From Ulota crispa (taxonomy: Eukaryota > Streptophyta > Bryopsida > Orthotrichales > Orthotrichaceae): a stretch of 64,000 nt of DNA. The stretch is from assembly GCA_963920765.1 (NCBI GenBank), contig OY987246.1, positions 17,108,868 to 17,172,867 of the forward strand. The letters run 5' to 3'. The notes under the pieces were generated by a model. That model saw only the letters and a program-made list of their open reading frames with translations. It was not told the origin of the DNA and searched no databases. The position numbers were made by a program, and so were the translations under genes. Numbering within the stretch: position 1 is the stretch's first letter; each line of letters opens with the position of its first letter. Below are positions 2,001-64,000 of this stretch, one piece after another.

Positions 2001-2183
2001 TGTTACTAATAATCTATTATTGGGTTGACCAATTTTGGATAATTCTATTCATTTTGTTTTTTTGTGCATGCATGCTAGAGTGCATATTGCTTAACCAACG
2101 GAAAAAGAAAAAAGAAAAATATTTTTATAGAGCTAGGGCTCACCCACAATTGAAATCATACTCCAAGAAGTCATGTTATTTAA

Positions 2184-2950
2184 CCCCTAAGCGCCCAGGC
2201 CATTTTTGCCAAAGTTAGGGTTTTGTAAGACCTATAACTTTGATGCATTGTATCTTAGTCAATTGGATGATACATAGAAAGTGACTTTTGAAAATAGTAG
2301 AACACCTACTTAGAAAACAACTAGCAAATTTTGGGAACAATATTTGACCATGTGAGATGGGAGATTATAATATTTGATCAAACAACATGTGATTGTAAAA
2401 TCTCATTTTTTGGCACGTAGTTGTTATTAATTAATTTTTACAAAATTCTATAAGCTCCTAATTCATCTCAATTTTGGTGAGTAGCAAGATTAGATGTGAA
2501 TGCACACCCTTGCAAATTTATTGAAGATAGTACTTCTTTTGTTAAGTTTTAGGGCTTCAAACTACTATTGCACGGAAAACAATGACCAACACAATTGGTG
2601 AGGGTTGCCACAACAAGGATCTATAACATGATTGAACCCTTGCTGGCAAATTTCTTGCTAACACAAAACACACTCAAGGAAGCTTGCCAAGAAGCTTGCA
2701 AGGGGTATTGATTGGTTGCAGCTTGTAAGACTCTGCTTGCCACCACGCCTTGTATGGTGTTTTGCCCAATCAAAGCTCTTGATGCACTTGTACAACATTT
2801 GGCTTGCCTCACCATTACACCACTTGCATGGACCACTTGAATGCCTTCATAATTGTAGTTTATAGCAAGATCAAAAAATTAGATCATGTGCCTCAATCAA
2901 GCCTCTAGAATCTTGTTAAGACACTTTTGGTCCTCTAGGGCGTTTAGGGG
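2184..2950. mobile_element. piggyBac-like MITE (767 bp)
   Basis: Termini CCCCTAAGCGCCC and, inverted on the right, CCCCTAAACGCCC, flanked on both sides by TTAA (2180-2183, 2951-2954). No transposase frame is present. Confidence 0.7.
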
Positions 2951-3870
2951 TTAATGAAGGCCTCTTTACATCTATGACCAAGGGCTGTGACTAAGGCAAT
3001 TTAAATGATGTAATTGGATGAGGACAACTGACTAATACAAGGTTGCTTTATGTTAGCTAAAAAAAAAAAAATGACCATGGGCAAAAATGAATGAGAAAGT
3101 GACATTGAATCTTTTATATCATGAAATAAATAAGATTTCATGGTCACCCAAATTTTGTGTTGGAAGCAACCTCAAGAGGTTCTTTGCCCAAATTTTGAGG
3201 GTAATCAAGCCATCCCAAAATATTTGAATTATTTATTTTTGTTAATCTTTCATGCTATTTACTACCATAGATGTTGTTTTAGTGCTATTTTATTATTGTG
3301 AACATAGGTCTTATTGCTAAAATGTTGTTTAATTGCAAGAAATGCATTTTAATTACAATAACTTTAGCTTTACGACTACAAATAAAAATAAATGATACAT
3401 TTTTTGTAAAGAATGAATGTCTGGTTAACAACATAATATTTTATAGCTAATTATATTGTAAAATTGTATGAAGACAATGAAATGGTCTTTTACTTTGCAT
3501 TTTTTCACTTTGTACAATTAACTAAAGCTTTAGTATTACGTTTTGTAATTTTGTTAATTTTAAGTTTCTTCCTCTATTTCTTGACATCCAAATTTTTGAA
3601 GTTTTATCAAGAAGTTAGAAGAAAAATAAGAGAAGGAGAGAGGAGAGAATAAGAAAAAAGAAATGAGAAAAAAAAGTAGAGTAAACAATTAACCCTCCAA
3701 TGGACTGGTCTCTTGAACAACCGAGCATCTCTTTGGAAACAATACAATACGGTGTCATAATGGAGGTATCTTTATCATGTAGATACTTGTTATTTATTTA
3801 TATTTGTGTTGATTTCAATAAATCAACAATTGTGGCAAAAAGGGTGGTCGTGGTGAGGACCACGATTTGG

Positions 3871-4076
3871 TGACAGCGCAGCGGCTATAGTCCAGTGCGC
3901 TGCGCCGTCTTGTCACATGCACAGCTCAGGGGGGGCAGGTAGTAGGTTGGCTGGGCCAATTTTCTGCCTCACTAGCTACCAAACCGTGAGCCGCCATCAC
4001 CGCTTGATGAGTCCGATGGGATTCAAACCCGGACCGGCGGGTGGCCAGAGACGACCGCTTCTCTAGCCAACTAAGT
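3871..4076 (-). mobile_element. tRNA-derived SINE with 11 bp target duplication
   Basis: Flanked by the perfect direct repeat CCACGATTTGG at 3860-3870 and 4077-4087. On the minus strand it begins with an A-box-like TTAGTTGGCTAGAG and then a B box GGTTTGAATCC, the internal Pol III promoter of tRNAs. The 3' end lacks an A-tail and instead finishes in a GC-rich stem (GCGCAGCG with CGCTGCGC, plus-strand 3875-3908) before the target duplication. About 206 bp. Confidence 0.8.
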
Positions 4077-4087
4077 CCACGATTTGG

Positions 4088-5880
4088 CATCTGAAGACAA
4101 GCGTTTGATGCTATTATATGCTCGCAAGGGCACGTGGCCACTTTACGATGGTATGTATTTTGTAATTTAATCATTTTCATATGTTTATCTAGATGTTTTG
4201 GAAGGCTCATATATTTTGCCTTTATTTGAATAAAAATACTAAGGATTTAGAAGTCAATGGGAAAGGTGTGAAAGGAAAAAAGGTTTAGCATCTATGGTAG
4301 GATTAGGATAGAGAGGGGCATGAGTTGATGTGCCTCACCTTCCTACCTTAGATAGGGTCAAAAGTATAGAAGAAAGATCTTTTAGTTGTTGGAAATTAGT
4401 GTATGAGTGTTGGTGGAAAGAAAAAAAAAATCCCGAAACTTTGATGTGAGGAATTTTCTGTGTATACATGATTTTAAATTGAAATTTGAGGAGATTGTTT
4501 TTTGTGTGATTACCTTTCCAAAATGAGTTTGCAAGTTTGAAGTGGAGTTGTGATGCAAAAGTTATGAATGTTTAAATTTTAAAATCAAAAAGCCAAACTA
4601 TGAAGAAAAGCTGAGATTTTGACAAGCCATAACTTATGATTTGTATATCATTTTGTAACAAAATTTGGAGGGAGTGTTTACCTTAGTCTTGGCTTTTTAG
4701 AAAGTCCTTAAACTTAAAATTTGAAACTTGGAGGAGAAAGTTATGAAGGTGTGAATGATGGAAGTAGCTGCTCTTTTGTTATGAAAAGGCTAAAATTTTG
4801 AAGAGCTACAACTTTTGAACAGTATGAAACTTTTTTCTAAAAATTTCAAAAGCAATAGTTTATTGTCATAGCTTTTTGAATTGTTTTCAATCATTCCATT
4901 TGGAGTCTTATTGAAGAAGTTATAGTATGTAGAATTTAGGATTTTAGATGCTCTCTAAAAAATTGAAACTCACACTTTAATTGACTAGAACTTACGGACA
5001 GAATTTTATTTTGAATTGAAATTTTACGGATTGTAGCCAATGATATCATCTTTCAAAATTGATATCACGTTTTTTAGGTGATGTGTAGAACAAAAATAAT
5101 AGAGGTTTATAGAGGCAGTGTTTAGTTTGCAAGGAGGAAGAAGAGCCTCAACTTTGAACCTGCACAACTTTTGGATAATAGCTTAGATTGAGTTGAAATT
5201 TGAAAAAATGTTAAAAGGTTATAAGAGCTTTTCAAATTGCTATTACACTTAGCATTTGGACCCTTGAGCCATCTGTGGCACTAAATAGAAAGTTGCAGCT
5301 TTTCTAAGACTTGTTATTTGTGATTTTTCCCATTGTTTTTATTAAAACATAAAAACCTGAAGACATGAAGACTTGAAGATCTAAAGATATGAAGATTTCA
5401 AGAGGAATGTTTTGGGTTTATTTTTTATGTACGTGTGAAACGTGGCTTTGTTATTCCTAGCCGGTTTTGGAGGCTCGTTTGTCAATTCATTTCTATTCTG
5501 TTTTGTAAACCTTGTTGCAGGTAATTTGGATTAAACCAAACTTAATCCCATTTATTGTCGTAGTGACAAAGTGGGATTGTTCACCCACATGGTCGAGATT
5601 TGCTCTGTTTTCACGATCTGGAATTTTGACTAGCAAATCGTGAATTTGAATTTAGGATCCCGTCATACAGACGGCAGCTCGTGTCTGCTGTCCCGATCTA
5701 CCCGTCCCGTATCCAGTGAGCTTTTATCCCTACCTTGTCCTTCATACCCCTAAAGTCAACCACAAGATAGGTCAACGGAAAACTGAAGACTAAAGATCTG
5801 AAAAGTGAAGATCAAGACAGAAAAAAATTTTAGTTGGTAACGCACGAATCGCAGCGAGACACCCTGCGTGTTCTCAAGGC
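4088..5880. other. AT-rich repeat-like DNA with GC-richer tail
   Basis: 4500-5300 carries many loose AAGTTATGA and AACTTTTGAA motifs. 5540-5880 is GC-richer and might be a retroelement long-terminal-repeat or leader remnant, but no matching second repeat or coding domain was found. Confidence 0.35.
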
Positions 5881-6330
5881 GCACTCCTCTCAACACAACA
5901 ATGAGGTATTTTCTTGTATTTGGAGTGCCTCCACACCTTTATCACATTTGAGATCAACAAAAAAGTTAGAATATAGATTAATGATCTTTTAGTGCGGTAG
6001 TCAAGATCCCAAATTAAAGCTTTTTGTTGGTAGTAAATGCCAGTTATATAGAAACTTACATAGTATGTATTCTAGTAGTTCGGTCCTTTAACCTTTGAAG
6101 GGCCCTTGGACTTTGGAGCTACGGTACCAAATACGGTCACAACCAATATTCATAAATTTGAATCAACTAGAAATTAAATGTTACAACCATACATATTGAA
6201 GGATTGTATGATGGTGGATACATAAATTTTTTTGAAAAGCCCTCAAAACAGCTCAAATATGTCCTATACATACGACCATACATACAGCCATAAAGAACTT
6301 TTGGGCAGTTCAGGAGTTAAGGGCTAAGTT
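5881..6330. repeat. Degenerate piggyBac-like family B sequence
   Basis: 5895-6090 matches the interior of family B (TGAGATCAACAAA-AAGTTAGAATATAGAT, TTGTTGGTAGTAAATGCCAG). It ends GGTCCTTTAACCTTTGAAGG, a decayed terminus. A second decayed end (CAGGAGTTAAGG) occurs at about 6307-6320. Confidence 0.5.
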
Positions 6331-7101: not shown

Positions 7102-7850
7102 ACCACCCAAGGGGCTCAAACGGTGCCCCTCTACATTGTATTATGAGATGCCCAATTTTTCTTTAGGATTATTTTTAGTGGTTATTATTATAAAAAAAAA
7201 AAAAGTCTCATTGAAGTCTTGTTTTAGTATCACAAATCTCATTTTGAAAATGAATGATTATAATTTGTCTATTCAAGATTTTATGCAAGGGTGTCTGTTG
7301 CAAATCTTCACTTTCTAATGTTGAGGGCTCTTAGAAATGAGCCTCAAATATAGTACACTATAACTTGGAGAAAAAAAAACATTAGAAACTCAATTAACCC
7401 CTAAAGGACCAAAGGGACATGTTTTGTCCTTGCTCATACACAAGGGCTCATGTAGGCACAATGACCTTCCCACCGCTTAAGGGTTAAAAAAGTTGTAGAA
7501 TATGTTTTGAGAAATTGTAAATTGATGGGGTTATGCATTTTATACTTTACATACTCATATATTTTTGGTACCTTCAGTTTTAGATTTGAGATGTGAAAAT
7601 AGGATTGAAAAACTTCAAATCACTTTCACAATTTTAACATCCTCAATTTCTCATGATCAAATTTTTTAAATTTTAATCCATAAGCGATGTTGTTGTGTTT
7701 TCTTTTCCCACATAATCTCTAACATGTCTAGCTTGAATTTGTATGGTTACATTTCAAAAAGAATTGATACAATTTATCAAAATGCTAGCATTTTGTTTAC
7801 TTTAGAGAATATTTTAAGATACTCAAAATAAATTGTGGGCGCTTAGGGGG
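7102..7850 (+). mobile_element. piggyBac-like element, family A, with nested insertion
   Basis: The interior matches 38619-39263 and its relatives (TTCAAGATTTT-TGCAAGGGTGTC, GAAATGAGCCTCAA, GTTATGCAT-TTTACTTTACATAC). The right end GGGCGCTTAGGGGG is followed by TTAA (7851-7854); the left end is degenerate. A 96 bp element (7398-7493) interrupts it. Confidence 0.65.
7398..7493. mobile_element. 96 bp piggyBac-like element inside family A copy
   Basis: Ends CCCCTAAAGGACC and, inverted on the right, CCCTTAAGCGG, flanked by TTAA at 7394-7397 and 7494-7497. The paralogous element at 38619-39263 has one uninterrupted TTTAA at the matching place (about 38905), so insertion duplicated exactly TTAA. 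Confidence 0.75.
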
Positions 7851-8267
7851 TTAATAATTATCACTTTCATCAAGTAAAAATTCTAAATCCCCTCCAAGAT
7901 TTGGATCACAATGATACATTTACTTTGCCAAAATTCAAGAGAAAAATAGAGATATTTATTTTACAAAAGTCGGCCATATCACAGGTCACATTGAACTTTT
8001 CATAGAACACATTTTTGTAATTTAATGAGGTTTTGTTTAACACAAAAAATGTGCATATGGATGTTTCTCACATATCCATGCAATCAAATTGCAAAAATTC
8101 ATAACCAATGTTTTTCAGTCAATTTTCTTGCAAACCCATGATGATTGAACAAATAAATTCACCAAAATAGGATTTTGGTATTTTGGGGTTGACTGTTTTG
8201 ATATGCTTGAGTAGGATTGCAAGTAAGAGCTAAATAAAAATGTTGCAAAGTAATAAAATGCCAACAA

Positions 8268-8825: not shown

Positions 8826-9303
8826 AGGGAAAATTTCATGAATACACCTGAATTTTGCAATATTTTCATAGATACCCCTGCTTTTTGAGAAATTTCCCAA
8901 ATATTCGTAGACCATAAATTTAGGCATTTATTTGTTGTGCTTGTAGTTTCTTCATGACCAATGTTGAAACATGGAATGTAATAAAACAAAGAAGAAGCAA
9001 TATGCGCATAGAGGTCAAAGGGAATTGGCATGTACAACCTAAAAACTCCTAATTTCACTACAAGGAAAATTTTCCAAAATGACAAAAATATGTCCAAATC
9101 AACATGGCTAAATTTACAAAAATTGACCAATTTGACAGTTATTTTTTGTCATTTTGGACACATTTAGTCAATTTGGACATGTCAATTAGGACACAATTTC
9201 TTGTAGTGTTTTTTTGATCCAAGGATATTTGTGAAATTTTTCAAAAAGCAGGGATATCTATGAAAATATTGCAAACTTCAGGTGTATTCATGAAATTTTC
9301 CCC
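8826..9303. mobile_element. TIR element GGGAAAATTTCATGAATA with nested hairpin
   Basis: Ends GGGAAAATTTCATGAATACA are repeated inverted at 9284-9303; pairing continues about 60-80 bp (AATATTTTCATAGATA, AAGCAGGGATATC). A CACTA-like hairpin is nested at 9056-9208. A related half-end lies near 54662-54760. Confidence 0.75.
9056..9208. mobile_element. CACTA-like hairpin MITE
   Basis: Ends CACTACAAGGAAA and TTTCTTGTAGTG, flanked by TTT on both sides. The arms pair through TTTTCCAAAATGACAAAAA and its inverse. Confidence 0.7.
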
Positions 9304-9629
9304 TCTTTCAAAATGAGCCATGGACCAAGCGCTGCAGGTTAGAAAGCCAAATAAAAAACAGAGAAGCAGGGTTTGGTGCACAGAATCTGCCACATTGTAG
9401 CAAGTTTCAAGGCCATGATGAGTGATGAGCTGAACCCAGGCGTCTTTTCTTTTTCTTTTCCGACATAAGCTGAATCATAAGACCAATGACCGGCTTCCCA
9501 AATTTGGAGGAGGTAAGGTAGGAGGTTTTAAAATGGTGCAAGCTCTGAAATGGTACACATCTTCAAATGCACTCTGTTTGTACAATCATAAAACCAATGA
9601 TTGGCTTCCCAAATTTGGAGGTAAGTTAA

Positions 9630-10262
9630 CACCTAAATGCCTAAGGCCTTTTCTAGGCTTCTAGGAATTTGCTTCAAACTAAACTAAAATGCATTATTTT
9701 AATAAGGAGTATCAAGTTCTTTTAAATTGTGACCGTACAAATCAAACTAGATATGTTTAAGGTCACATTTCAAAAAAAACCACACAACAATATCACTTAT
9801 GGATTGAAAGATTATAATGTTTAATTATGAGGTGTTAAAACGACAAAAATGACTTGAAGCCTTTGAATCCTCTTTTCACATGTTGGATTTAAAAAAATGG
9901 TCACAAAACAAATTTAAGGTTAAAGAAAATAACATACATAACCCAATCATTTTTTAGCTTTTCAAAATCTCTTCTACAATTTTTTCATAAGTTTTTTTAG
10001 TGTAAATTTTTCTCCAAGATCTAGTGTATTTGAGGCTCATTTCCAAGAGCTCTCAACACTAGAGAAAGTCAAGACCCTTGCACAAAATCTTTAATAGAAA
10101 ACTCATAATTGATCATTTTTTAAATCAGATTTTTGATCCTAAAACTAAACTTCACAAAGAATAAATCCAAAATATAAGCTACTAAAAATAGAAACTTAGT
10201 TGAGTTTATTGAACTTTAGAGTATTGCCAACACCAAAATTTGGTGCCGCACGCATTTAGGGG
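9630..10262 (-). mobile_element. piggyBac-like MITE, family A (inverted)
   Basis: TTAA at 9626-9629 and 10263-10266. Termini CACCTAAATGCC and, inverted on the right, CCCCTAAATGCG. The interior is family A in reverse orientation (TTTGAGGCTCATTTCC, ACCCTTGCACAAAATCTT). Confidence 0.75.
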
Positions 10263-10344
10263 TTAAATGTAGGAGGTTCTAAAATGGTGCACCTTTCCAA
10301 ATGTATTATGTTTAAGGTAAACATACCTATACCCAACCGTTTAA

Positions 10345-10570
10345 CCCTTGAACGACGGGAAGGCCCTTTGTGGCCAGTACAATATGGCGTATTTTCCTTG
10401 TATTTGGAATGGATCCACACCTCTATTACATTTCAAACTAACAAAGAAGTTGGAGAATAGATCAATGCAATTCTAGTGAGCTACTTGAGATTCCAAATTA
10501 AAATTTCTTATTGGTAGCAAATGACAATTATATGTTAGCATATATACTATGCCCTACAGGTGTTTAAGGG
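10345..10570. mobile_element. piggyBac-like MITE, family B (226 bp)
   Basis: TTAA at 10341-10344 and 10571-10574. Termini CCCTTGAACGACGGG and, inverted on the right, CCCTTAAACACCTG. The interior marker TTTGTAGC-type and TTATTGGTAGCAAATG sequence is shared with the other family B copies. Confidence 0.75.
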
Positions 10571-10676
10571 TTAAGAGTTTGGGGTATTTCAAGGTTTTGA
10601 AAAATTCTAGAACAAAATCCATAAGGTTAGCCCTTCAACAAGCTATCACATAACGTAATTTTTTTTGGAAAAACAT

Positions 10677-11484: not shown

Positions 11485-11837
11485 GAAGTGCACCATTTTA
11501 GAGCCCTATACCATTTCAACTTCAAAAATTCATAATTAAATCCACAAAGCTCCAAAAAATATGAAACAACTTGGGTTAAATGTTAATTGCTCTTATCTTT
11601 CAAGGAAAATTTACTGAAAAATATTTAAGAAGTTTCACCTCGCCAAAATTCAATTTCAGCCTTCAGATGGTCCATTCAATGAGCCTCCTACCTTATTGTC
11701 GTTCACTGGCCCCATGCACTAGCTTGTATCGCAAAGAAAAACATATGCCTGTTTGAACTAGCAATTTGTATGGCAAGCATCAAACTGGGTGGAGCAAAAA
11801 GGCCAATGTGCATTCCCCGAGGCACAGCCGACTTTAA

Positions 11838-12481
11838 CCCCTAAATGCCCAAGGCACCCAATTTGGGTGTTTGCAAAACTTTGAAAATAAATAAAATCTT
11901 ATCAAATCATTATTTTTGGTATTTTCTTTTGAACACAAGTTTGTTTTGAAGTCTATTTTCAACATCAAAAATCTGATTTTGAAAATGAATGTTCATGATT
12001 TTTCTACTTAAGATTTTGTACAAGGGTGTTCACTACAATCTTGAGTTTTCTAGTGTAGGAAGATCTTGAAAATGAGTCTCAAATACATTAGAGCTTGGAG
12101 AAAAATCCGCATTAGAAATCCATTTCAAAAAAATACATGAGTAGATTTTGAAAGCCGTAAACTAGTTGAGTTTAAATATGTAATGACCTTAAAGCTTGTA
12201 TTTTTTTGATGACCAACTTTTTAGATTTGACATGTGAAATGAGGCTTAGAAAACTTCAAGTCACTTTTGCAGTTTTAACACCCTCATGTTCAAACGTTAT
12301 AATCTTTCAAACTATAAGTGATATTGTTGTGTTTTCTTTTTCCATGTAATCTTTAACATGTCAAGTTTAAATTTGTATGGTTATAGTTTAAAAAACTTGA
12401 TGAGATTTATGAAAAGGTTGGTTGCTTGTTCACTTTCCTAAAAATGCCAAGAAGTTCAAAAAGGCCTTGGGCATTTAGGGA
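11838..12481 (+). mobile_element. piggyBac-like MITE, family A
   Basis: TTAA at 11834-11837 and 12482-12485. Termini CCCCTAAATGCCCAAGGC and, inverted on the right, TCCCTAAATGCCCAAGGC. At about 644 bp it is the best-preserved pair of ends in family A. Confidence 0.8.
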
Positions 12482-12677
12482 TTAAGCCCTTTGCTTGGTA
12501 TCGTGCGCTCCTCCTCTGCCGGATGGTGGCACCCCATACTGGCTTTTTTTCCTAGCAAATGGGTGCTTAGTTGTTCCTTCCACATTGGAGAATATCTGGA
12601 GGGAAGGAAATGGGAATCATGTTAGAATTGGCAAATTTTTGTCAGAAAAAAAAAACGCACCCCAATACCCCACCATC

Positions 12678-14205: not shown

Positions 14206-14352
14206 CTAGCCCTTTAAGATTGTGATTGCAACATCCTTGCGGTATTTCCCTGCCGTTTTGTCAACCAGGAGGTAGACAGCTTCTAAGATAGCGTGTTAAC
14301 CAGAGATTTCCTGCTCCCGGCTAGCCTTGGAGCCTACCGACAATTTCGACCA

Positions 14353-18559: not shown

Positions 18560-18970
18560 TATAGAGTCTTGATACTCCCACCCCCCTTTTTGATACTGTC
18601 ACCTCTTTCTTTTACAACATTGTTCAATTCTTAGTCATTTTTGGGAACAGTTTTTTTTTTTCTTTTTAATTTAGAATTAAATATGTATCCCACCACATGA
18701 TTCTTTGTAGGTGTTTTTTAAAATGATGAATTGCAATCAAAAAAATTGATACAAAAAGCCAACACTCTATTATCTTTTCTCATCAAATTTTGATATTGTA
18801 GTTTATCATTTGAAAAACCCCAACAAAGAATCACTTGGTTTGATACATATGTAATTCTAAATTTAAAATAAAAATTTGTCCCCAAAAACAACTCAAAATT
18901 GAAAAATGTTGTAAAAGAAGGGGGTGGCAGTATCAAAAAGGGGGTGGTAGTATCAAAGACCTTTTTATAT
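18560..18970. mobile_element. Long foldback element, TCTTGATACT family
   Basis: The arms nearly cover the element: GTCTTGATACTCCCACCCCC on the left mirrors GGGGGTGGTAGTATCAAAGAC on the right, continuing through CATTGTTCAATT and its inverse. Open frames inside are incidental. Related to 46465-46829. Confidence 0.75.
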
Positions 18971-26983: not shown

Positions 26984-27041
26984 CTAGAGAGTGGCAAATT
27001 ATATCCTTTTCTTTCTTGTTATTTTTTCTTCTTTATTTTAA

Positions 27042-27853
27042 CCCTTAAACGACCATAGGGAATAGTATATACGCTAACGTATAATTGTTCCTCCCTCTGT
27101 CCCAATATAAAGCTCCAAATTAGGCATAGTTCTTGTCCCACTAAAAAGCTCCCTTTTGCTAATTTCAATTGCTGAGAAAGTGTTTTTGTCATGTCCCATG
27201 ATCTCATGGGGGCAAATTAAGCAATTAAAGAGCATTCCTCTCCTAACAAGCTTGACCTTGCCCACATGTGGTACCATTGTTGCTACTAATCATTAAATCA
27301 TTAATAATGAGGAGCTAGCAACATGTACAAATATGGTACTTTTTGCATAGAATTTGGGTGCCCAAACAGTAACATCAAAGTTAGAGATTTTTCACGCATT
27401 TGGTAGATGGTATATTGATTCTAGAACATATGTGTCATTAGCAAAAATATTAAAATAATGAAGAGCCGGCAGCCTTCACAAACTATGCACAAATATGGTA
27501 CTTTTTGCATGCAATTTGGGTGTCTGAATGGCAACATAAAAACCTGAGATTTTGCAGATATTTGGTAAGTGGTATATTGATTCTAGAATGCATTTGTCAC
27601 TAGCATAATGACTAAAAATATAGTTAATTCCTCGTAGAGAAGTTTTTTGGAGCTTTATAATGGGACAAAGGGAGTATTTGCTACCCATAAGAAATTTTAA
27701 TTTGGGATCTCAAGTAGCTCACTAGAACCGCATTGATCTATTCTCCAACTTCTTTGTTGGTCTCAAATGTAGTAGAGGTGTGGATCCATTCCAAATACAA
27801 GAAAAATACTCTGTATTGTATTGATCGCAAAGGGCCTTTTGGTTGTTTAAGAG
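27042..27853. mobile_element. piggyBac-like MITE, family B, split by a Stowaway-like MITE
   Basis: TTAA at 27038-27041 and 27854-27857. Outer ends CCCTTAAACGACCATAGGG and, inverted on the right, CTCTTAAACAACC. The 584 bp element at 27091-27674 lies inside; without it the unit is about 228 bp, like other family B copies. Confidence 0.72.
27091..27674. mobile_element. Stowaway-like MITE, AAAGCTCC subfamily
   Basis: Ends CTCCCTCTGTCCCAATATAA and, inverted on the right, CTCCCTTTGTCCCATTATAA; TA flank on the right. 584 bp, nested in piggyBac-like 27042-27853. Same family as 42730-43310, inverted. Confidence 0.8.
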
Positions 27854-27877
27854 TTAATCTCTTTTTCCATTGCTTAA

Positions 27878-28111
27878 TCCTTAACGGACCAAGCTACTAT
27901 AATGCATAGTATGTACGGTGCTATATAACTGGCATTTGCTACCAACAAAAAGTTTTAATTTGGAATCTTGACTACCTCACTAGAACAGAATTGATCTATA
28001 TTCTAACTTCTTTGTTGATCTCAAATGTAATAAAGGTGTGGATGCACTCCAAATATAAGAAAAATACTCCATATTGTACTGGTCACAAAGGGCTGCTTGG
28101 CAGTTTAAGGG
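27878..28111. mobile_element. piggyBac-like MITE, family B
   Basis: TTAA at 27874-27877 and 28112-28115. Ends TCCTTAACGGACC and, inverted on the right, CCCTTAAACTGCC. 234 bp, located about 20 bp from the previous family B copy. Confidence 0.74.
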
Positions 28112-28364
28112 TTAATCCTTGAGCTCCTAGCCCAAATTCATGCTGTATTGGATCTCATTGCAAATAATTTGGCGTCGTAAGTTCAAAAACAACATCTAGA
28201 AGAGTTAGCCATTGATATTGCATGAGGCTTAGGATCTGCAATTGTGTGAAAAATTTGGTAAGTTTTCATCGTACAGATCAAAAGATTATGACGGTCAAAA
28301 AGAACAAACTATTGAATACTAGTATACAAGCACACGCTTTGCGTGAGTAGGACATGTATGAGTA

Positions 28365-29166: not shown

Positions 29167-30407
29167 TATAGATGGAGAGGCTAGTCTTGGGGTGCTGGGA
29201 GGCTCAAGGGTCCATGGTTTTCTTAATCAAACGATTTTGGGTGATTATCGTTCTTTCAAACACCGGTCAATCTCCATAACTTCGCTTTTATCCCTCCAAC
29301 TTTTCTTTCTTTCAATCTTATCCCCTTCAACTTTTTGTAGACCCCCATGTTTTGTTTGTTTTATATTATGCAATATAAATTTTCAAATTTCTTCTTTGTA
29401 AGAATCCGTTGATTCAAAGAATGGATGTACTTCATTTCCTGAAATGTATATTGCATTCAATAAAGAAGTATCTTTTACTATGACCTCAACGAAAAAAGCA
29501 GTAAAATAGTAACAAGAAAAACCATTTTAGTTAAAAATCGTACATTATAAACTCATGACGAGAAGAAATTTGAAGACCGTTTATGTTTTATTCACAACCT
29601 CTTAAAGGGAAAGTTTCAAAATTTTGGTTTTTTATATTATTGATGAAAATTGGTGAGTACAATAAATATTAGTAAGTACAATCCTAGATCCATACATATG
29701 GATTTCATTAGTGGATCACATTATAGCTTTTGCTTCAGAGTTGTCACCGAATCATTTTTTGAATTGCAGTTTGTAATATGTCCTCTTCTTTTTTGAAAAA
29801 CTAACATGCTTCATAGAAATTGGGAAGTATAAGGTAAAAAGAGGTTACTAGAATCAAAAAGGGTTGAGAGTGGAAAAAGGGTTTGAACTCAAATACAACC
29901 CTTAATATCATCTTCAAACCAATATGTTATTTTATGTATACATTTTTAATTTAATTGAAGATGTGAGTTTGTGGAAGTGTAGTTACTCTTAACCCAAAAG
30001 ATTAAATTAATATATTTTTTTTGGCAACATAGCAATTTTGAGCATTTGGTTGTGAACAAAACCTTCTATGCACTCTATTAGGTTTTGGACAAAACTCATG
30101 TGCAAGGATTACCTTTCCAATGCATTATTCCAAAAACAATCGAACAAAATTATAAGAAATTTTGAATATACTTAGGATCCTTTTCAAATTAGGGAGAGTG
30201 GGCCCAAGAATTTATAATACACCTAAGGTTTCTTCACATGAGCAAGAAGGGAAAGGTAAGGCAAGCTACATTGTGTTAAAAAAAATCAGAGCACACAAAG
30301 TTGGATCTAGTTTTTAAATATACACCTACAAAAATTTCAAGTACAGTGACACAATTTTGACATATACAATTTGAACTTGATTTTTTCAAAAAAACAAGAC
30401 ATATCAA
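29167..30407. other. No gene recognised
   Basis: AT-rich sequence with no long frame or clear terminal repeat. Confidence 0.4.
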
Positions 30408-30832
30408 CCCCTAAAGGACTGATTGTCAGTTCAGGGGACAAATGGGATTTTGGGCATGTATCAAGCCATATCTACGAGCAAACTAAAAGTCCTCATAACT
30501 TTTGTCTTATTTATTGGAAATGAGTGATTCAAAGCTTCCCATGTATATGTAAACTCAAAGAACCAATTTCAGATTTTTACTTTAAAAAGACGTAAATTTA
30601 AAAAAAGTTTTTGGGCTGCCTAGACCATTCAACCTCTCCAATTTTTTAGAAATTCATTTTCTACTTCTTCAAAAAATGTTGGAATGAAGAAAAATCTATA
30701 TGCCCACACATATTTTTGAATTCCACATTTTCCATAAAAGTTTCAAAAAATCACACAAAGTAGTTTAGCCATAGCTAGATACATGCCCAAAATCCCATTT
30801 GTCCCCCAAATGGATAGTTAGTACTTTAGGGG
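30408..30832. mobile_element. piggyBac-like MITE, family C
   Basis: TCAA left, TTAA right (30833-30836). Ends CCCCTAAAGGACTG and, inverted on the right, CCCCTAAAGTACTA. Inverted subterminal blocks around GACAAATGGGATTTTGGGCA extend pairing to about 60 bp. Related to 61951-62860. Confidence 0.72.
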
Positions 30833-30836
30833 TTAA

Positions 30837-31562: not shown

Positions 31563-31566
31563 TTAA

Positions 31567-32503
31567 CCCCTAAAGCCCAATGGGTGTTACAGAGAAAAAT
31601 AAGACCAAAATTATCATTTTTTGATGACTTTTTTTGAATTCAAGTAATTTTTTTTTGAGTTTCAATCATACAAAAGTGCAAAATACATGTAAGGCAATGT
31701 GTGAAAACAAATTCAGCCCATTTGGTCACGTAGATTGTAAGGTTATAATGTTTGAAGTGAAAAAAACAATTTTTTTCATTCTTGCAAAGTAAGGTTAGCA
31801 GACTTTGAGCCCTCTTAAAGTAGATTTTTTGCTCTACAAAAAATAAGATTTTTGACCATTCACAAGTATATGATGTTAGGTTCACTTATCAAAAATTTCA
31901 AAAGCAAATATAGAATCTAGCTTATTCCAAATCACCCTACAATTCAAGGAGGTTCAATGAATTGGCAATACACTAGTCATTTTTTCATGATTTCTTGTGC
32001 AATAAAGAAGTCTTTTATTTGAAATCCAAATGGCCAAATGTTAAAGACAAACATCAGAAATATGCAGAAAAAAATCAAGAGCTTGGCATTCACAGAATGA
32101 AAGATAATAGGGCCTGCAGTTAGAAGAAAATGTCTTTTCTTGAAACCGCCCAAACATAGTTAACAAAGTTTGACTCCTCTTGGAATGTGATGTGAGAGCT
32201 CAATTTTTTTCTTGATGATTGTGTACCATATTTTATTAGTTACATACACGCCAAGTTTCCAAAGTTAATGAGAGCTTTAGCATAAGATTCTCCAAAGATG
32301 CCCATACTGCCCAAGGTGCCCAAATTCTTTTGGGCAGCATAACTTTTTACTCAAGCATCCAATTAGAATTTTGTTTTCTCACACAAAGGTATTCATTAAG
32401 TGCATCTTGTTTTCAAATTTCAAAGCCATCCGCCAAAAATTGACTTCATAGGAACCTACCCAACTTTCAACCAACTGTTGAACGAGCTTTTGTGGTTTAG
32501 GGG
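31567..32503. mobile_element. piggyBac-like MITE, family D (937 bp)
   Basis: TTAA at 31563-31566 and 32504-32507. Ends CCCCTAAAGCCC and, inverted on the right, CCCCTAAACCAC. The interior is shared, inverted, with 62926-63879. It lies downstream of the BT1-like gene. Confidence 0.74.
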
Positions 32504-32507
32504 TTAA

Positions 32508-38614: not shown

Positions 38615-38618
38615 TTAA

Positions 38619-39263
38619 CCCCTCAAAGCCGGAGGGGCGGTTTTTACGCCCCTCTGAATTTTCTTCAAGGATGCCGAAGGTTTTTTGAAATTTTATTTTG
38701 TGGTTGTTATTATAACTAAATTGTTGTTGAAGTCTAATTTCAGCATCAAGAGTCTGATCTTAAAAATGAATTAACATGATTTGTCTATTCAAGATTTTGT
38801 GCAAGGGTGTCCATTGCAAATCTTCTCTTTCTAGTGTTGAAGGCTCTTAGAAATGAGCCTCAAGTATACTAGAACTTGGAGAAAAAATCACCTTAAAAAT
38901 TCATTTAAAAAAGTTGTAGAATAGATTTTGAGAAGCCGTAAATTGATTGGGGTTATGCATGTTGTACTTTACATACTCATATTTTTTTGGTACCCTCAAT
39001 TTTAGGTTTGAGATGCAAAAAGAGGATTGAAAGACTTCAAATTACTTTCACAATTTTAACACCCTCATGATCAAACATTGTAATCTTTCAATCCATAAGT
39101 GATATAGTTGCAATTTCTTTTTGTATGCAATTTACAACATATCTACTTTGAATTTGTACGGTTGCGTTTCAAAGAAAATTGATAAGATTGATCAAAATGC
39201 CAGCATTTTGTTCACTTTCAAGCAAATTTTGAGATACTCCAAAATTCTAGGGGCGTTGAGGGG
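38619..39263 (+). mobile_element. piggyBac-like MITE, family A
   Basis: TTAA at 38615-38618 and 39264-39267. Termini CCCCTCAAAGCC and, inverted on the right, CCCCTCAACGCC. 645 bp. It provides the uninterrupted reference for the insertion at 7398-7493. Confidence 0.78.
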
Positions 39264-39358
39264 TTAAGCATTACCCTATACATGGTACCTTGTATATGAT
39301 ACATAGAATATGGGGAATTTATTTGGAAAATTTGCTCCCTAACAAATAAACTTACTGG

Positions 39359-39962
39359 AAGGTAGGAGGCTTGAATTACATTCGGTCATTTAGAACCATC
39401 CATGTAGGGATGTCATAAACAATGCATAAAGCTTCTTAAATGGGTCACATTTTCTATGTTTAGAAATTGTACTTGTGAATGCACGGTTTTAGGAACTTAA
39501 GAGAGTGACATGAGCTACTGCTCAGTATGCTTATTGGTCATAATTGTGTTGAGATTTGTCTTTGAGTAAAATATAGATATAAGTTGTACTTAAATAAACA
39601 AAAAAAATTCAATCATAAATTTGAGTATTAGAATATGGAATGAGTGTTTGCACGCTCTAAGGGCCTTATTGGAATATTCTTAACTTTGTAGTGGTTGCTT
39701 TTTGGACTCATGTACTCCATTTACAAACTGCCTTTGAATCATGAAAGCTACCACCTATGATCAAGAATAGCTACCTATGCAACTTTTGCTTTGATAAATT
39801 ATAGTTAATTCATGTCAACTCAAAAATTTACAGTTTGAACATCCACAAAACTATTTCTTCCTTGACTTTCTACCAAGAATAGGTCCAAATTGCCAAGCAT
39901 ACCTGATTTTTCTACAGGTGCCTACTATCCCTTATATGGTCCATTCATGAGCCTCCTACCTT
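39359..39962. mobile_element. MITE, AAGGTAGGAG terminus family
   Basis: Ends AAGGTAGGAGGC and, inverted on the right, AAGGTAGGAGGCTCATGAAT. A piggyBac-like element begins at its right end. Confidence 0.6.
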
Positions 39963-39964
39963 AA

Positions 39965-40610
39965 CCCCAAAACAGCCTTGAAGACACAATGTGCCCTCAA
40001 CCAAATTTTGAAGTTAAATAAAACCTTACCAAATTACTATTTTTAGTAGTTTATCTTTTCTAAATATTCTTTTCAAAGTTTATTTTTAGTTTCAATAGTC
40101 TGATTTTGCAAATGATCGTTTATGATTTTCCTATTCAAGATTTTGTGCACGGGTGTCCATTGCAATCTTGACTTTATGTAGTGTTGAGGGCTCTTGGGAA
40201 TGAGCCTCAAGTACACTAGATCTTTGAGAAAAAAACCACATTACAATTCATTGAAAAAAATTATAGAGTAGATTTTGAGAAGTCATAAATTGATAGAGGT
40301 TATGAATGTTAGGCCCTTTAAACCTCATATTTTTTGGTGGCCAAGTTTTTAAATGTGACATGTGAAAAGAAGATTGAAAGACTTCAAATCATTTTCAAAA
40401 TTTTAACACCCTCATGATCAAACATTATAATCTTTCAATCCATAAGAGATATTGTTATGTTTTCTTTTCTAATGTGATCTCTAACATTTCTAGTTTGATT
40501 TTATATGGTTACAATTCAAAAGAATTGATACAAATTATCAAAATATTGGCTTTTTGTTCAAATTAGAGCAAATTCCTAGAAGCTCAAGAAATTCCAAGGT
40601 CATTTTGGGG
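39965..40610 (+). mobile_element. piggyBac-like MITE, family A
   Basis: TTAA at 39961-39964 on the left, TTAC on the right. Termini CCCCAAAACAGCCTTG and, inverted on the right, CCCCAAAATGACCTTG. 646 bp. It sits exactly at the end of the repeat 39359-39962. Confidence 0.72.
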
Positions 40611-40626
40611 TTACTAGTAATACATA

Positions 40627-41396: not shown

Positions 41397-41527
41397 TATG
41401 ATTTTAGCAACAGCTACGACGATGACTCCCTTTGGCGCATGAGTTTTCTCTCCCGTCCTTAGAACTTGCGATAAACGTTGAAAAGGCTAAAGCAGGAGCA
41501 AAGACTTCCTTGTAATGCAAAACAAAC

Positions 41528-42091: not shown

Positions 42092-42171
42092 ATATGCCGC
42101 AATGAAATCACAGCATGTCAACCATTCAACCTTAACAATCCTACTTCTTAGACTAACAGTAGCTTTCTTAA

Positions 42172-42499
42172 CCCTTAAAGGACAATAGGGCATAATATAT
42201 TGTAACCTAATAGCAGATTTGGCACTTCTCATCTAGTTGCTTCACTACTGGTAGTGGAGCGACTGGATGAGAAGTGCCAAATCTGCTATCAAATTCCAAT
42301 ATATGCTGCCGTATAACTGATATTTGCTACCAATAAGAAGTTTTGATTTGGGATCTCCAATAGCTCACTAGAACCGCTTTGGTCTATTCTCCAACTTATT
42401 TGTTGATTTCAAATGTAGTAGAGATGTGGATCTATTCCAAATACAAGAAAAGTACCCTGTATTGTATTGGTAGCAGCGGCACGCTCAGTCTTTTACGGG
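42172..42499. mobile_element. piggyBac-like MITE, family B, with inserted hairpin
   Basis: TTAA at 42168-42171 and 42500-42503. Ends CCCTTAAAGGACAATAGGG and, inverted on the right, CCCGTAAAAGACTG. It is about 100 bp longer than other family B copies because of a hairpin at 42202-42297. Confidence 0.74.
42202..42297. repeat. Near-perfect hairpin (about 38 bp arms)
   Basis: The arm at 42210-42249 contains TAGCAGATTTGGCACTTCTC and is mirrored at 42252-42289, with a loop of only a few bases. It interrupts a family B element between stretches that are contiguous in other copies. It could be a tiny foldback transposon and, if transcribed, a small-RNA precursor. Confidence 0.7.
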
Positions 42500-42729
42500 T
42501 TAAGTATTAGAAAACAGTAGAAATCGTAGATATTGCGCATTAGAAATTTGAAGCAAATGGACCTTGCGCTTAGCCAGCGTTTTCAATTTCGAGCAAGAAA
42601 CCTGACAATTAGCAGAAAATTGCAATTAGTCGTACTAATCTGGAGAGGAGTAGAGAAAAAACGGCATCGAAATGCGACAAAGATAAGGAGGCGCAGGCAG
42701 GAGCGTCAGTAAGCAAGAGGTAATGCGTA

Positions 42730-43310
42730 CTCCCTCTGTCCCATATAAAGCTCCAAAAAATTTCTCCATGAGGGATTATCTGTATCTTTAGTCATTATGC
42801 TAGTGACAAATGCATTCTAGAATCAATATAAGTTACCACCTACCAAATGTTTGTAAAATCTCCAGTTTATATGTTGTCACACCTAAATTCCATGCAAAAA
42901 GTACCATATTTGTGCATAGTTTGTGATTGCTGCCAGCTCCTCATTATTTTAGTCTTTGTACTAATAACATATGCGTTCTAAAATTGATATACCATTTACC
43001 AAATGTGTGCAAAATCTCCAGCTTTGATGTTGCGATTTGGGCACCCAAATTCCATGTAAAAAGTACCATATTTGTACATGTTGCTAGCTCCTCATTATTG
43101 ATGATTTAAAAAATTAGTAACAACAATGATACCTCATATGGGCAAAGCCAAGCTTGTTAGGAGAGAAATGCTCTCTAATTGCTTAATTTGCCCCCATGAG
43201 ATCATTGGATATGACAAACGTTTTCTCAACAATTGAAATTAGCAAAAGGGAGCTTTTTAGTAGGACCAGAACTATGCCTTATTTGGAGCTTTATATTAGG
43301 ACAGAGGGAG
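42730..43310. mobile_element. Stowaway-like MITE, AAAGCTCC subfamily
   Basis: TA at 42728-42729 and 43311-43312. Ends CTCCCTCTGTCCCATATAAA and, inverted on the right, CTCCCTCTGTCCTAATATAA. The interior has two copies of a CATATTTGTGCATAG-type block. Confidence 0.82.
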
Positions 43311-44029: not shown

Positions 44030-44172
44030 GAAGCCAATCATCGATTTGCCATTTGCACACTGCGAGGATCCAGAAAGTAAAGTTAATAACAAAAAAAAAA
44101 CGGCTTCGAAAGAGCCAGAGTCGGCTTCTTTGATTGAGAACGCACATAATTAGGGCTTTCCATTTTTGCAAA

Positions 44173-44586
44173 GGGGATTGATATGTGTACCACACCCTTT
44201 CAGCTATTCTACCACACCCCCGGGGTAAATTTTAGGTTTCTACCATCAAAAAGTTGAATTTGAGAATTTGGAATTCAGATTTGGACTTACAGACAGTGAT
44301 TCAGTCTAGAATTATAAAAATGTTCTAATTGAACAACACCCAATAAAAGAGCTTATCTTTTTTTGTAAACAAAAGTAAAAGTAACACTTTTCCCCCTAGC
44401 TAAGCTTTTTTATTGGGTGTTGTTCAATTAGAACATTTTTTTTATGGTTCTAGACAAAATCAAGGTCTCTAAGTCCAAATCTGAATTCCAAATTCTCAAA
44501 TTCAACTATTGGATGGTAGAAACTTAAAATTTACCCGAGGGGTGTGGTAGAATAGCTAAAAGGGTGTGGTACACATATCAATCCCC
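44173..44586. mobile_element. Foldback element with 9 bp target duplication
   Basis: Perfect TTTTGCAAA at 44164-44172 and 44587-44595. Ends GGGGATTGATATGTGTACC on both strands; arms of about 190-200 bp cover nearly all of the element. A 9 bp duplication points to Mutator-like mobilisation. Confidence 0.82.
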
Positions 44587-44602
44587 TTTTGCAAATTGAT
44601 GT

Positions 44603-57341: not shown

Positions 57342-59195
57342 AGTGAATGCCTCTTGCACAAGCAAATTTTGTCACATGTCAACTGCTAAGCTACTTTGAG
57401 ATTGTTGGGATTGGGACCCTCAAGTGCCATTATAGGAACACATCCAACAGTTTCAAGGGTAGTCTAGAGTTGCTAATAGAGACCCTACAACTTTGTCCTT
57501 TAATAAAAAATAATCTACAATACTTTTTCCCACAAAACTTACGTCCCTCGACAACTTATTGAAAGGCTAACCCTATTGGTTTTTTTCTTGAATTTTCTGA
57601 GACCTTGAGGTACCTCAAATGCTTAAACGGTTAGGTATGGGTGTGTCTACCTTGCAAACCAACCCTTAAGGCTGGACCACACCAAACAAAATTGACATTT
57701 TGTATAAAATAGGTGGCAGCGTTTACATGTTTGTGTAAAAATAAATTTTCTGATTTTTTTTAGGGCCCACTTTTCTAGTCTGTTCAAAACTACCCAATTT
57801 TGAAAGTTCACAAATTAACATCTCAAATCTTCTACCCGAGAATAATGGAGAGGTTATCTTTAGTAAAAAATAGTAGGAAACCTTGAAAAAGTGATTGTCT
57901 GCCAATTTACCAAAAACACAAGTTACTTCTCAAACCGACTGTTTTGGCTCGTATGGCCTCGGCATCACAGAGAAATCCCTCTATCCAGAACTCCAAGTTT
58001 CAACTGGTGTGGATGCTTTTGCAAAAGCTCCAGCGGCGTCGCCGTGCAGAAGTCGAGGTGCATTTGTCACACAACATCCGGGACTTCAGGACCTGAACCT
58101 ACGTTGAAGTCTCTTCATGAGTTGCTGAGTGGGTTCGAGGGGATCCCGACAAAATTGAGCCAATGAGCTCAAGCCACGGCAGCTCCGGATCCCGGGACTT
58201 CGAGAGTCGGGAATCGGGGTCCCACCTCTCGACACCTCGTGTACGGACCGTACCTACTTTGCTGCAGTCTGTCTAGATTGCGACTATGTGTCACACAGGT
58301 GTTCATTGGTTTCGTAACACCTTTTAAGACCTTTTTAGTTCTTTTTAATACTTTTTAGAAGGTTCGATTTACTGCACTTAAGTTTTGTGGGGTCAGAATA
58401 GAAATAGCTCGGATGTTTCATCCGCCAAAAACGGCCAGTGTGAATTGACCCCCTTATTGTCCTTTTTTGGATGAATGCGTAGGGAGCTCTGTCAATTATT
58501 TTGGGAGGTTGTGTGCAGCTTGACAATTTTTTTTGCCTAAATTTTACCTCAATTTTAGACTAGTTATCATTACATTAGAAAAATAATGTGAAAGAATGGA
58601 TGAAATTGCAAGGCTCCTTCCCAAGTAAATACAATGTTTGTCAAAATTTGGATGGAAGCTAATAAAATCAATGTATTTTATGGATGAACGTGCACTACTT
58701 GTTGACTCTACCCATTTCTCTCCAAATTTTTCTTACTAGCTTGCATTGTTAGGTGCATGTTGCGCAACCAACAAAAAAAAAACATAATTTAAAGGTTGGT
58801 TGTGGGGCCAAAGTATAAAGCTCCGTCTTTTCACATTTCAACATTTATGAGACTTTGGGAAATTTACCAGTAGGAGACTGAATTTATAAATTTTGACTTC
58901 ATATTTGGATTCAAACACCCTAATTTACTCTAGAACTTGGGAGGAGTATATGGTTGAACACTACAAAAGTAGGGGATAAATTATTGTTTTTTCCCTTGCT
59001 TCAAATATGATTTTTTCCATTTTGGCAAAAAAAACATGGATGTGCAATGGACAAAGTTTGATAGCCCCATTCATTCAAAAATAGAATGATGAGGGAGTCA
59101 GTTCACCCTAGTTGCCAGAAATTGGAAGAGTGTAGATATTTACCATTGAAAAATTGAATTTGGGAATTTTGAATTTACTTTTGGATTCACACACC
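57342..59195. other. No gene recognised
   Basis: Contains a GC-richer patch at 57940-58290 with short frames only; otherwise AT-rich. Confidence 0.35.
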
Positions 59196-59199
59196 TTAA

Positions 59200-59427
59200 C
59201 CCTTAAACAACCAAGGAGCCCTCTGCAACCAATATAGTATTTCATATTTTCTTGTATTTGGAATGCATTCACACCTTTACTACATTTGAGATCAACAAAG
59301 AAGTTAAAATATAGATCAATGCGGTTCTAGTGAGCTAGTCAATATCTCAAATCAAAACTTTTTATTGATAGCAAATGCCAGTTATACAACAGCGTATTTA
59401 GTATGTATGCAAGCGGTCGTTTAAGGG
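59200..59427. mobile_element. piggyBac-like MITE, family B
   Basis: TTAA at 59196-59199 and 59428-59431. Ends CCCTTAAACAACCAAGG and, inverted on the right, CCCTTAAACGACCGC. 228 bp. Confidence 0.78.
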
Positions 59428-60031
59428 TTAATTTCCTCGAGAACAACACACGGAGGAGGACAAAACTGACCAGCTCCTAAATACGGCGAGGATTGTTACT
59501 TTTACGCTTGTTAGTAAAAAAATTAAGTTTTTCCGCCCAAGCCACCCAAACACGTATGTGCACAGAAACACGTATGTGCAGTACATCAAGCCTACTTGGA
59601 AGTCTAAGTGCACTTTCAGCCCATTCAGTACTATGGGCGTCAAAGACCACACACTAAGGTAAGAGGCTCGTGAGATGAGGGCATCTGTGAGGAAATCCGT
59701 GTAGAGGAAATCCAGGTAGGCTCATATAATGGGTATATTTTTGGCAAAGAGACAAAGAAGAGGAAATCTATTGCCGCTTTAAATATAATTCTTGAAGTTG
59801 GTAGGAATTTATTACAATAGTCAAAGGTACATAGGTAGCTATTTTGGAGAGTAGGACGTAGCAATGATGGTGTAAAATTAGTTTGTGAATTGATGGAAAA
59901 GTTGCTTAAATTTGTGCACTCTCAATCTTAAAAGGTTTCTAAACCGGCCGTATGTTGGATGTACAAATATCTCATTTTACCCATTCCAAATTCCAATGCA
60001 GAAGTTATATTGGAGACTCACATTGATTTAA

Positions 60032-61856: not shown

Positions 61857-61950
61857 ACACTAAATAGTGCATTTAGGTTGCCTTACTCTAAAAAATTACC
61901 TTGTGATTCTCCATTTGGCCACTTGGACGTGCATGCCAAAGTTGTCACTC
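61857..61950. mobile_element. Truncated copy of the AATAGTGCATTTAGG family
   Basis: One end (CACTAAATAGTGCATTTAGG) plus about 75 bp of interior matching the inverted 3' part of 60032-60348. Homology stops where the piggyBac-like element 61951-62860 begins. Confidence 0.6.
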
Positions 61951-62860
61951 TCCCTAAAAGACCATTGTCCCTTTGGGGGACAAATGGGATTTTGGGCATG
62001 TACCTATGGCTAAACTACGTTGCCTGATTTTCTGAAATTTTTATAGAAGGTGAGGAATTCAAAGATCTACGTGGGAATGTTATTTCTTCATTCCGTCATT
62101 TATTGAAGAAGTTATGCATGAAAGTCTTGAAAATGTTGCTCCCTAGGCAGCTAAAAACTTCTTTAAAAATTCCATTTTTTTCAAATAAAAATCTGAAATA
62201 GGTTCTTTAGACTTATATAGACGTGGGGAGCTTTGAATCATTCAATTTTGATAGATGAGATGAAAGTTATGAGGAGTTTTTGTTTGCGGGCAGTTCTAGA
62301 TTCTCAACTCTAAAATAAACTTTGAAGTCCTTTATTTTACTCAATTTTTATTATTTTGGAAAAAAAAAACAATACCAAAGGATGTAGATTAATTATCACA
62401 ACATTATAACCGTTGGGATTTGCATTTTAATAATTAAGTTCTTAACAATGTAGTGTTTTGACTCATTTTCTATTTCTTTTTACTTACTATTTTTTCCCAT
62501 GTGTTGTATAGCTCCAATTGATTTGAAAATTCTCCCACACATACCTAACTTGGTCTCCTACATGGGAAAAATAAACCTCAACTTTGTGTAGAGTGATTTT
62601 TCTGCTCTAAGAGTGGTCAAAGCGTTCTGAAATTTCTAGGCAGCAGCAATTTGTTTTTTTTCTTCAATTCAGATGTAAATATCTCACTCATTTTATCTAG
62701 ATTGAGCTGATTTTTTTACCATGTGTATCTCTTGTAGTCTAATGTAAGATCTTATGGTTGGATTCTAGTAAAAGCTTTTTTTCTTACCATTGTACTTGCT
62801 TCCCCAAAAGTGGCAGTTAATTGTGCTTTTCACAAAAGAAATGGCTTGGTCCTTTAGGGG
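61951..62860. mobile_element. piggyBac-like element, family C
   Basis: Left end TCCCTAAAAGACC (TTAA lost), right end inverted CCCCTAAAGGACC followed by TTAA at 62861-62864. It shares GACAAATGGGATTTTGGGCA with 30408-30832. It appears to have inserted into, and truncated, a TIR element beginning at 61857. Confidence 0.62.
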
Positions 62861-62925
62861 TTAATGCTAGGGTTTCATATGGTTTATGGCCTAGACAATG
62901 ATACTTAATTTCTTTGCAACATTAA

Positions 62926-63879
62926 CCCCCAAAAGACCAAGAGTCCGTTCAATGACCACTTGCAAACTTGGGTAGGGTCATACAAAGTCAAATTTCATTG
63001 GATGTTCTCAAAATTGTCATCAAATGTAAGTATGTATCTCTAAATGGATGTGTAATTTTTTCCCCAATTGGATGCTTGATTCAAAAGTTATGCTTCCCAA
63101 AAGAAATTGGGGAGCTTGAGCAATTTGGGCATCTTTGGAGGATCTTAAGCTAAAATTCTCATCAACTTTTGAAATTTGGCACGTATGTAACCAATAAAAT
63201 GTGGTATACAATTGTCAAAAAATAAACAAAAATTGAGTTCTTAAATCACATTCTAAGAGGAGTCAAAGTTTGTTAACTATGTACATGCAGTTTCAAGAAA
63301 ATGAACATTTCCTTCTAATTTCAAGCTCTATTATTGTGCAATTTAAAAATTCAAAGCTCTTGACATTTTTTTGACTTATTTCAAATGTTTATCTCTAACT
63401 TTTCCCAATTCAAATTTGAAATAAATGACTTCTTCATTGTACAAGAAATCATGAAAAAGAAAACTAATGTAATGCTAATTCACTTAACCTCCTTGTATTA
63501 TAGGGTGATATAGAATAAGCTAAATTCTATATTTACTTTTGAAATTTTTCATGAATGAACCTGACATCATATACATATGAATGGTCAAGGACATCATTTA
63601 TGTGAAGAGCAAAAATTTTACTTTGGGAGGGCTCAAAGTCTGTTGACCTTATTTTGGAGGAATGAAAAAAAAGAAATTTTTCACACTTCCAACGTTATTT
63701 TCTTACAATCCACGCTTTGAAATGGGCTGAATTTTTTTACACACATTCATTTATTTGTATAACACACTTTTGTACAGTTGAAATTTAGGAAATAAAATTT
63801 TAATTTCAATTTTGGACAATGCCCTAAAAGTTTGCAATTTCTGAGAAATTATCTCAAAAAACACCCCTGGTCCTTTAGG
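62926..63879. mobile_element. piggyBac-like MITE, family D (inverted)
   Basis: TTAA at 62922-62925. Left end CCCCCAAAAGACCAAG; right end inverted ACCTAAAGGACC with a decayed TAAT flank. The interior matches 31567-32503 in reverse (AATGGGCTGAATTT, TTCCTTCTAATTTCAAG). Confidence 0.65.
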
Positions 63880-64000
63880 TAATAATATTGTTTTTAAGTC
63901 CTAATTGTTGTTAAAAAAAATCTTGCAATAATTATTGATGAAAATCATTGTAATACTCGTAAGTAGTTATATAGTGTAAATTGTTGAGAAACTAGTGTGG

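Follow-up and report, generated by a model that had tools for sequence, protein, structure and literature searches.

Inverted-repeat elements in the window

The 64-kb stretch of Ulota crispa DNA analysed here (C5:17108868-17172867, hereafter the window; genome, 274.8 Mb) is populated by short elements whose inverted ends begin with CCC and are mostly flanked by TTAA. With at most one mismatch, the end motif TTAACCCYTAAA matched 27 times in the window versus a mean of 1.63 and a maximum of 6 in 100 shuffles, and the strict end TTAACCCYTAAANGNCC occurred 19,465 times genome-wide (9,725 + 9,740) versus a single match (0 + 1) of the reversed control. Thus the CCC-type ends with TTAA flanks reported in a preliminary description of this DNA are real. 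The window yielded 17 candidate end pairs, 13 of which were kept as elements with inverted ends TTAA-CCCYTAAANGNCC; three were dropped as implausible (38-2954, 3689-6320 and 6088-6320) and one as an interrupted copy (27038-27857). TTAA was found at both flanks of 10 of the 13, the remaining three having TCAA/TTAA, TTAA/TTAC and TTAA/ATAA. Together the 13 elements span 6,859 bp, and self-comparison revealed interrupted and partial copies as well. The preliminary description had counted about fifteen loci, most of them TTAA-flanked: the flanks held, while the count came to 13 pairs plus these copies. The features are as follows, each with the evidence that defined it (a strand applies to the single end only):

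38..49, forward strand: single end TTAACCCCTAAATGCCC, without a partner at a plausible distance (motif match)
2180..2954: family E element (~775 bp), TTAA at both flanks (end pair; 39 relatives scored)
5890..6091: family B relic, ends lost (self-comparison)
7125..7860: family A relic, split by the 94-bp element at 7394-7487 (self-comparison)
7394..7487: 94-bp element lying inside that family A relic (at 38814-39009 an empty relative has a single TTAA; 86% identity over the junction)
9626..10266: family A element, TTAA at both flanks (end pair, clustering)
10341..10574: family B element, TTAA at both flanks (end pair, clustering; empty relative at 57524-57653, 77%)
11834..12485: family A element, TTAA at both flanks (end pair, clustering)
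27038..27857: family B copy split by a ~590-bp repeat at 27091-27676 (self-comparison, end pair)
27874..28115: family B element, TTAA at both flanks (end pair, clustering)
30404..30836: 433-bp foldback with D-type ends, earlier called family C, flanks TCAA/TTAA (inverted arms, clustering)
31563..32507: family D element, TTAA at both flanks (end pair, clustering)
38615..39267: family A element, TTAA at both flanks (end pair, clustering)
39961..40614: family A element, flanks TTAA/TTAC (end pair, clustering)
42168..42503: family B element of 336 bp, longer than usual, TTAA at both flanks (end pair, clustering)
59196..59431: family B element, TTAA at both flanks (end pair, clustering)
61968..62864: partial D copy, a single TTAA-CCCCTAAAGGACC end at 62853-62864 (motif match, self-comparison)
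62922..63885: family D element, flanks TTAA/ATAA (self-comparison, end pair, clustering)

Families, abundance and target site

Element structure was surveyed in a 264-kb sample made up of the window and 200 kb of contig C1, in which 54 elements were picked out of 73 candidate pairs by visual inspection; one of the 54, C1 sample 63028-64369, later proved to consist of a D element together with other DNA. The elements measured 79-1,879 bp (mean 669 bp); 36 of their 108 ends were strict and 43 of the 54 had TTAA at both flanks. Directly before the strict inner end CCCYTAAANGNCC, TTAA stood in 42 of 44 cases in the sample, with mixed bases further out, at -5 to -8. Clustering of the 54 yielded family D (18 members; ~930 bp plus derivatives), family A (11; ~650 bp), family B (11; ~234 bp), two small groups of 925 bp (3) and 232 bp (2), and nine singletons. 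The sizes first proposed for A, B and D are matched here (641-654, about 234 and about 925-960 bp, respectively), and several distinct interiors do occur. The family set itself changed in two ways: i) 30404-30836, formerly a separate family C, groups with D and carries 69-bp inverted arms of 83% identity, so that it is better taken as a D derivative, and from its sequence it looks like a foldback built of one D end; ii) 2180-2954 belongs to a further family, E. For family E, 2,148 candidates were found genome-wide and the best 40, including the element itself, were scored: the 39 relatives were 80-84% identical, most of them across the whole of 1-775, and they share borders at 1 and 775. Two overlapping queries for family D gave 4,704 and 4,113 first-look candidates, and among the best 40 scored for each the top relatives reached 90-94%.

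Short, non-coding, bounded by inverted ends and present as thousands of candidates per family, the elements have the traits of miniature inverted-repeat transposable elements (MITEs); the two longest in the sample contain 34 and 20 stops in the one frame that was read. Divergence from the consensus was 11-21% for A and 10-16% for B, and for D it was 18-25% in the closest seven of 14 copies and 40-44% in the other seven. With the sampled A and B copies and seven of the 14 D copies 10-25% away from their consensus, the majority of sampled insertions are old. On C1, 29,270 bp of the 200 kb sampled are taken up by 41 pairs, and scaling from the sample gives ~29,000 elements, 19.5 Mb or ~7% of the genome, a rough estimate that rests on 54 elements.

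Empty sites were sought by comparing the joined flanks of 103 candidate end pairs with the sampled and fetched DNA, the matches being read by eye. For five insertions there is a relative in which the sequence continues across the junction with a single TTAA: two in the window (7394-7487 and 10341-10574) and three in the C1 sample, namely 15245-15484 (92.7%, the best), 72821-73755 (which sits within a family B copy and has several such relatives) and 115383-115632 (86%; the element's own flanks are TCAA/TTAA). These empty relatives are paralogues, not excisions, and the remaining junction-spanning matches, apart from the weaker ones weighed below, are artefacts of tandem neighbours or wrong pairing.

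Because TTAA is palindromic and contains TA, the length of the duplication was tested via the rare insertions outside TTAA. One outer base was changed in 860 (position -4) and 740 (position -1) strict ends genome-wide. Among the places listed on C1, 13 elements had non-TTAA sequence at both flanks, and in 11 of them the same 4-mer was directly repeated (CTAA in four, TTAG in three, TTAT in three and GTAA in one). All 11 pairs that join the -4 and -1 lists agree, versus a null mean of 0.27 and a largest value of 3 in 2000 trials. These 11 direct 4-bp repeats exclude a 2-bp or 3-bp duplication as their source. A middle base was changed in 858 (-3) and 541 (-2) strict ends genome-wide, and one pair joined these two lists; the rare alternative targets therefore keep the middle TA (11 outer-base pairs versus one middle-base pair). 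Thus the target duplication is 4 bp long, with a strong choice of TTAA and some tolerance at its first and last base. The preliminary description had held that duplications other than TTAA would speak against piggyBac-type transposition; such targets exist, at ~1.7% of insertions (arithmetic on small counts: 10 both-strict elements per 36 strict ends), but they are still 4 bp long and their variants match the published piggyBac ones.

Near C1 560862, 567086, 571414 and 634777-635010, adjoining elements stand head to tail with one TTAA in common, the outcome of repeated insertion into the TTAA next to earlier copies.

The piggyBac transposase domain and the identity of the elements

A profile search of the genome contigs for PF13843 (DDE_Tnp_1_7), the piggyBac transposase domain for which the preliminary description had called for a genome-wide search, returned 527 candidates, of which the best 116 places were scored. 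PF13843 gave 120 match rows at at least 116 places on contigs C1 to C11, all above the curated cut-off, the best with an E-value of 1.3e-73 over positions 2-349 of the 349-residue domain; the same domain matched in none of 14 control genomes. In-frame stops interrupted 110 of the 120 rows, and the matched stretch was free of stops in 10 rows at eight places. Presence on all large contigs together with decay argues against contamination. Among the places listed, the nearest to the window is C5:17378513, ~206 kb off. Three pairs of matches with identical or near-identical scores lie in opposite orientation (C2:36765124/36779670, C7:18203169/18223004 and C10:676128/785346); they are inverted duplications or assembly artefacts.

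The CCC ends, the 4-bp TTAA duplication, the piggyBac-like rare targets and PF13843 in the same genome together place the elements with the piggyBac superfamily, so that they are in all probability non-autonomous piggyBac-superfamily MITEs mobilised in trans. The earlier proposal of piggyBac-type TTAA transposition is supported by the empty relatives, the direct repeats at rare targets and the presence of the predicted transposase family in the genome. Mechanistically, a piggyBac transposase encoded elsewhere in the genome would bind the short CCCYTAAANGNCC inverted ends, excise the element and join it at TTAA, and repair would leave TTAA on both sides. We infer that the PF13843 transposases, or their ancestors, recognise these MITE ends.

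The likeness extends to the described members of the superfamily. T. ni piggyBac, Pokey/mPok of Daphnia and the animal piggyBac MITEs share with the present elements the 4-bp TTAA duplication, rare CTAA, TTAG and TTAT targets, short inverted ends starting with CCC, and non-autonomous derivatives, with PF13843 in the genome. Passages of PMC6651600, citing Li et al. 2013, give 2% non-TTAA insertions for piggyBac, mainly CTAA/TTAG and ATAA/TTAT with TA conserved; a passage of PMC3849761 gives Pokey targets as TTAA 88.1%, TTAT 5.9%, ATAA 5.1% and CTAA 0.85%; and the portion of PMC10813416 consulted states that animal piggyBac ends mostly begin with CCC and names TTAG, CTAA and GTAA among the rarer duplications. 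Unlike described piggyBac, the elements have a land-plant host and the inner end CCCYTAAANGNCC, the ends being known here from MITEs alone.

Several observations weigh against the piggyBac assignment. i) PF13843 was found in none of the 296 open reading frames (ORFs) scanned from the window and the fetched loci (149 + 146 + 1, out of 431 of at least 84 aa listed once four duplicate loci and low-complexity ORFs had been removed), a result that also agrees with the earlier statement that the elements carry no transposase. ii) C1:1180709-1181995, the only PF13843 copy listed in C1:0-1.8 Mb, has no strict forward end from 1,134,367 to its start, and of the 20 PF13843 places in the range listed, one has a CGTCC-type end (a type found 529 times in the genome) no more than 5 kb away, that end pointing away. 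Such position tests are weak either way, as they cover one end subtype and one locus and strict ends make up about one in three of those sampled; likewise, the nearest approach between 56 known element places and 116 PF13843 places was 21 kb, a distance that says little because the 56 are just the best-scored of thousands of candidates. iii) Weaker junction matches exist, with gaps or mismatches at the site in at least some relatives of 9626-10266 and of C1 sample 76696-77636, 91784-92746, 97417-98336 and 158943-159860. iv) Two of the 13 C1 pairs are not direct repeats (ATAA/TTAC and TTAG/CTAA), and among nine D rows L032 is flanked by TTAT on the left and ATAA on the right and L038 by ATTA/TTAA. 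v) A palindromic target predicts equal deviation at mirrored positions, but -4 and -1 are slightly unequal (860 versus 740, p 0.003) and -3 and -2 strongly so (858 versus 541, p 2e-17).

Tourist and Stowaway are the usual plant MITEs, and like the present elements they are short, have inverted ends, reach high copy number and choose AT-rich targets. If the elements were Tourist/PIF-Harbinger or Stowaway/mariner MITEs merely preferring TTAA, with a TWA or TA duplication (3 bp and 2 bp) and the outer A belonging to the element, this would agree with the presence of TA, TTA and TAA within TTAA, with the TTAT/ATAA flanks of L032, and with the small sample, in which -1 deviates least (1/137, versus 6-8 at each of -4, -3 and -2). 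Neither the 3-bp TWA duplication of PIF/Harbinger nor the 2-bp TA duplication of Tc1/mariner was found, the full 4-bp direct repeats CTAA, TTAG, TTAT and GTAA in 11 of the 13 C1 elements ruling both out, and genome-wide -4 and -1 both deviate (860 and 740); we regard this explanation as very unlikely. Still less credible is a chance or telomere-like (CCCTAAA) motif unconnected with transposons: the element end resembles the plant telomere unit plus one extra base, but the reversed control (19,465 versus 1), the common borders of family E at 1 and 775 and the empty relatives rule it out.

Another TTAA-duplicating superfamily with its own transposase, above all Kolobok (or a Sola group), would make the piggyBac genes coincidental; the genome-wide transposase search was aimed at PF13843. 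Kolobok likewise duplicates TTAA according to a passage of PMC9587614; the same passage gives its termini as 5'-RR, versus CCC in these elements, and among 'plants' it names green and red algae and no land plant. Moreover the rare targets show the spectrum described for piggyBac in the passages of PMC6651600 and PMC3849761 quoted above. Such an origin is thus improbable, and assignment to piggyBac is preferred.

Elements of this kind have already been described in animals; what is new is their host and their scale. In the C-Fern, likewise a non-flowering plant, a PiggyBac class of 1,230 copies and 122,417 bp appears in the repeat table of PMC6890710 as a minor class, as far as the table excerpt goes. 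The occurrence of piggyBac in plants is stated in general terms in passages of PMC10140906 and PMC10813416, and the parts of a plant review consulted (PMC10794571) name piggyBac in a superfamily list and otherwise as a tool. Six end sequences of these elements occur in no paper of the PubMed Central open set, and no TTAA MITEs of a land plant were met in the titles and abstracts found there. It is conceivable, and we put it forward tentatively as something short of an even chance, that a land-plant lineage, probably bryophyte, was invaded by piggyBac, perhaps horizontally, and that the invasion gave rise to ~29,000 MITEs in several families, ~7% of the genome and among its largest DNA-transposon populations, with some transposase frames still open. 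If so, no natural piggyBac system of a land plant would have been worked out before this one.

Animal genetics relies on piggyBac as one of its main tools, and catalogues of plant transposons usually omit it. If a land plant does harbour a large natural set, the superfamily would be shown to be capable of amplification in such a host, its thousands of insertions would give a record for studies of target choice, and the system would supply a transposase with a history of activity in plant cells; repeat annotators would also be prompted to look for TTAA MITEs in bryophytes.

Other elements and genes in the window and fetched loci

Low-copy GC-rich elements (the 1816-bp L017:4637-6452 and its relatives L039-L050) were considered as a coding mother family and rejected, as no transposase family appeared among their ORFs: 30 ORFs from L039-L050 (20 of 89, plus 10 from L049/L050) matched no transposase family in Pfam, the best stray match being RNA_pol_RpbG with an E-value of 0.0085, below its cut-off. 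L039-L050 and the L017 element share a 40-70 bp end, which by eye resembles the family B end in L039-L050, and the interiors, which for the most part show no relationship, may be captured host DNA; L049 includes 1300 bp with two relatives at 66%.

Among the scanned ORFs of the fetched DNA are matches to receptor kinases of the legume-lectin and malectin types and to HAUS5, as well as to IFT122 (1.7e-9), Meckelin (2.9e-4) and, weakly, IF140/IFT172 (0.0041), judged by E-value rather than by curated cut-off; the IFT122 propeller can cross-match. Flowering plants are not known to have intraflagellar transport, so these flagellar-gene matches suggest a host with swimming sperm, a bryophyte or fern and not a flowering plant.

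The ~590-bp repeat of the window occurs at 27091-27676 and 42728-43310 (87% identical), and since its first copy sits inside a family B element it is probably another transposon. Five large foldback repeats, several of them mutually related, lie at 8827-9302, 18569-18956, 40941-41344, 44161-44598 and 46471-46822, with arms of 87-160 nt that are 83-90% complementary. The stretch 40623-41400 has 31-bp inverted ends beginning CATACTCCCTTCGTCCC, which we take to resemble Stowaway-type ends, and a related stretch lies at 28803-29120. At 14287-16650 the window also contains an open ORF for an L-type lectin receptor kinase (Lectin_legB 1.5e-48, kinase 1e-45).

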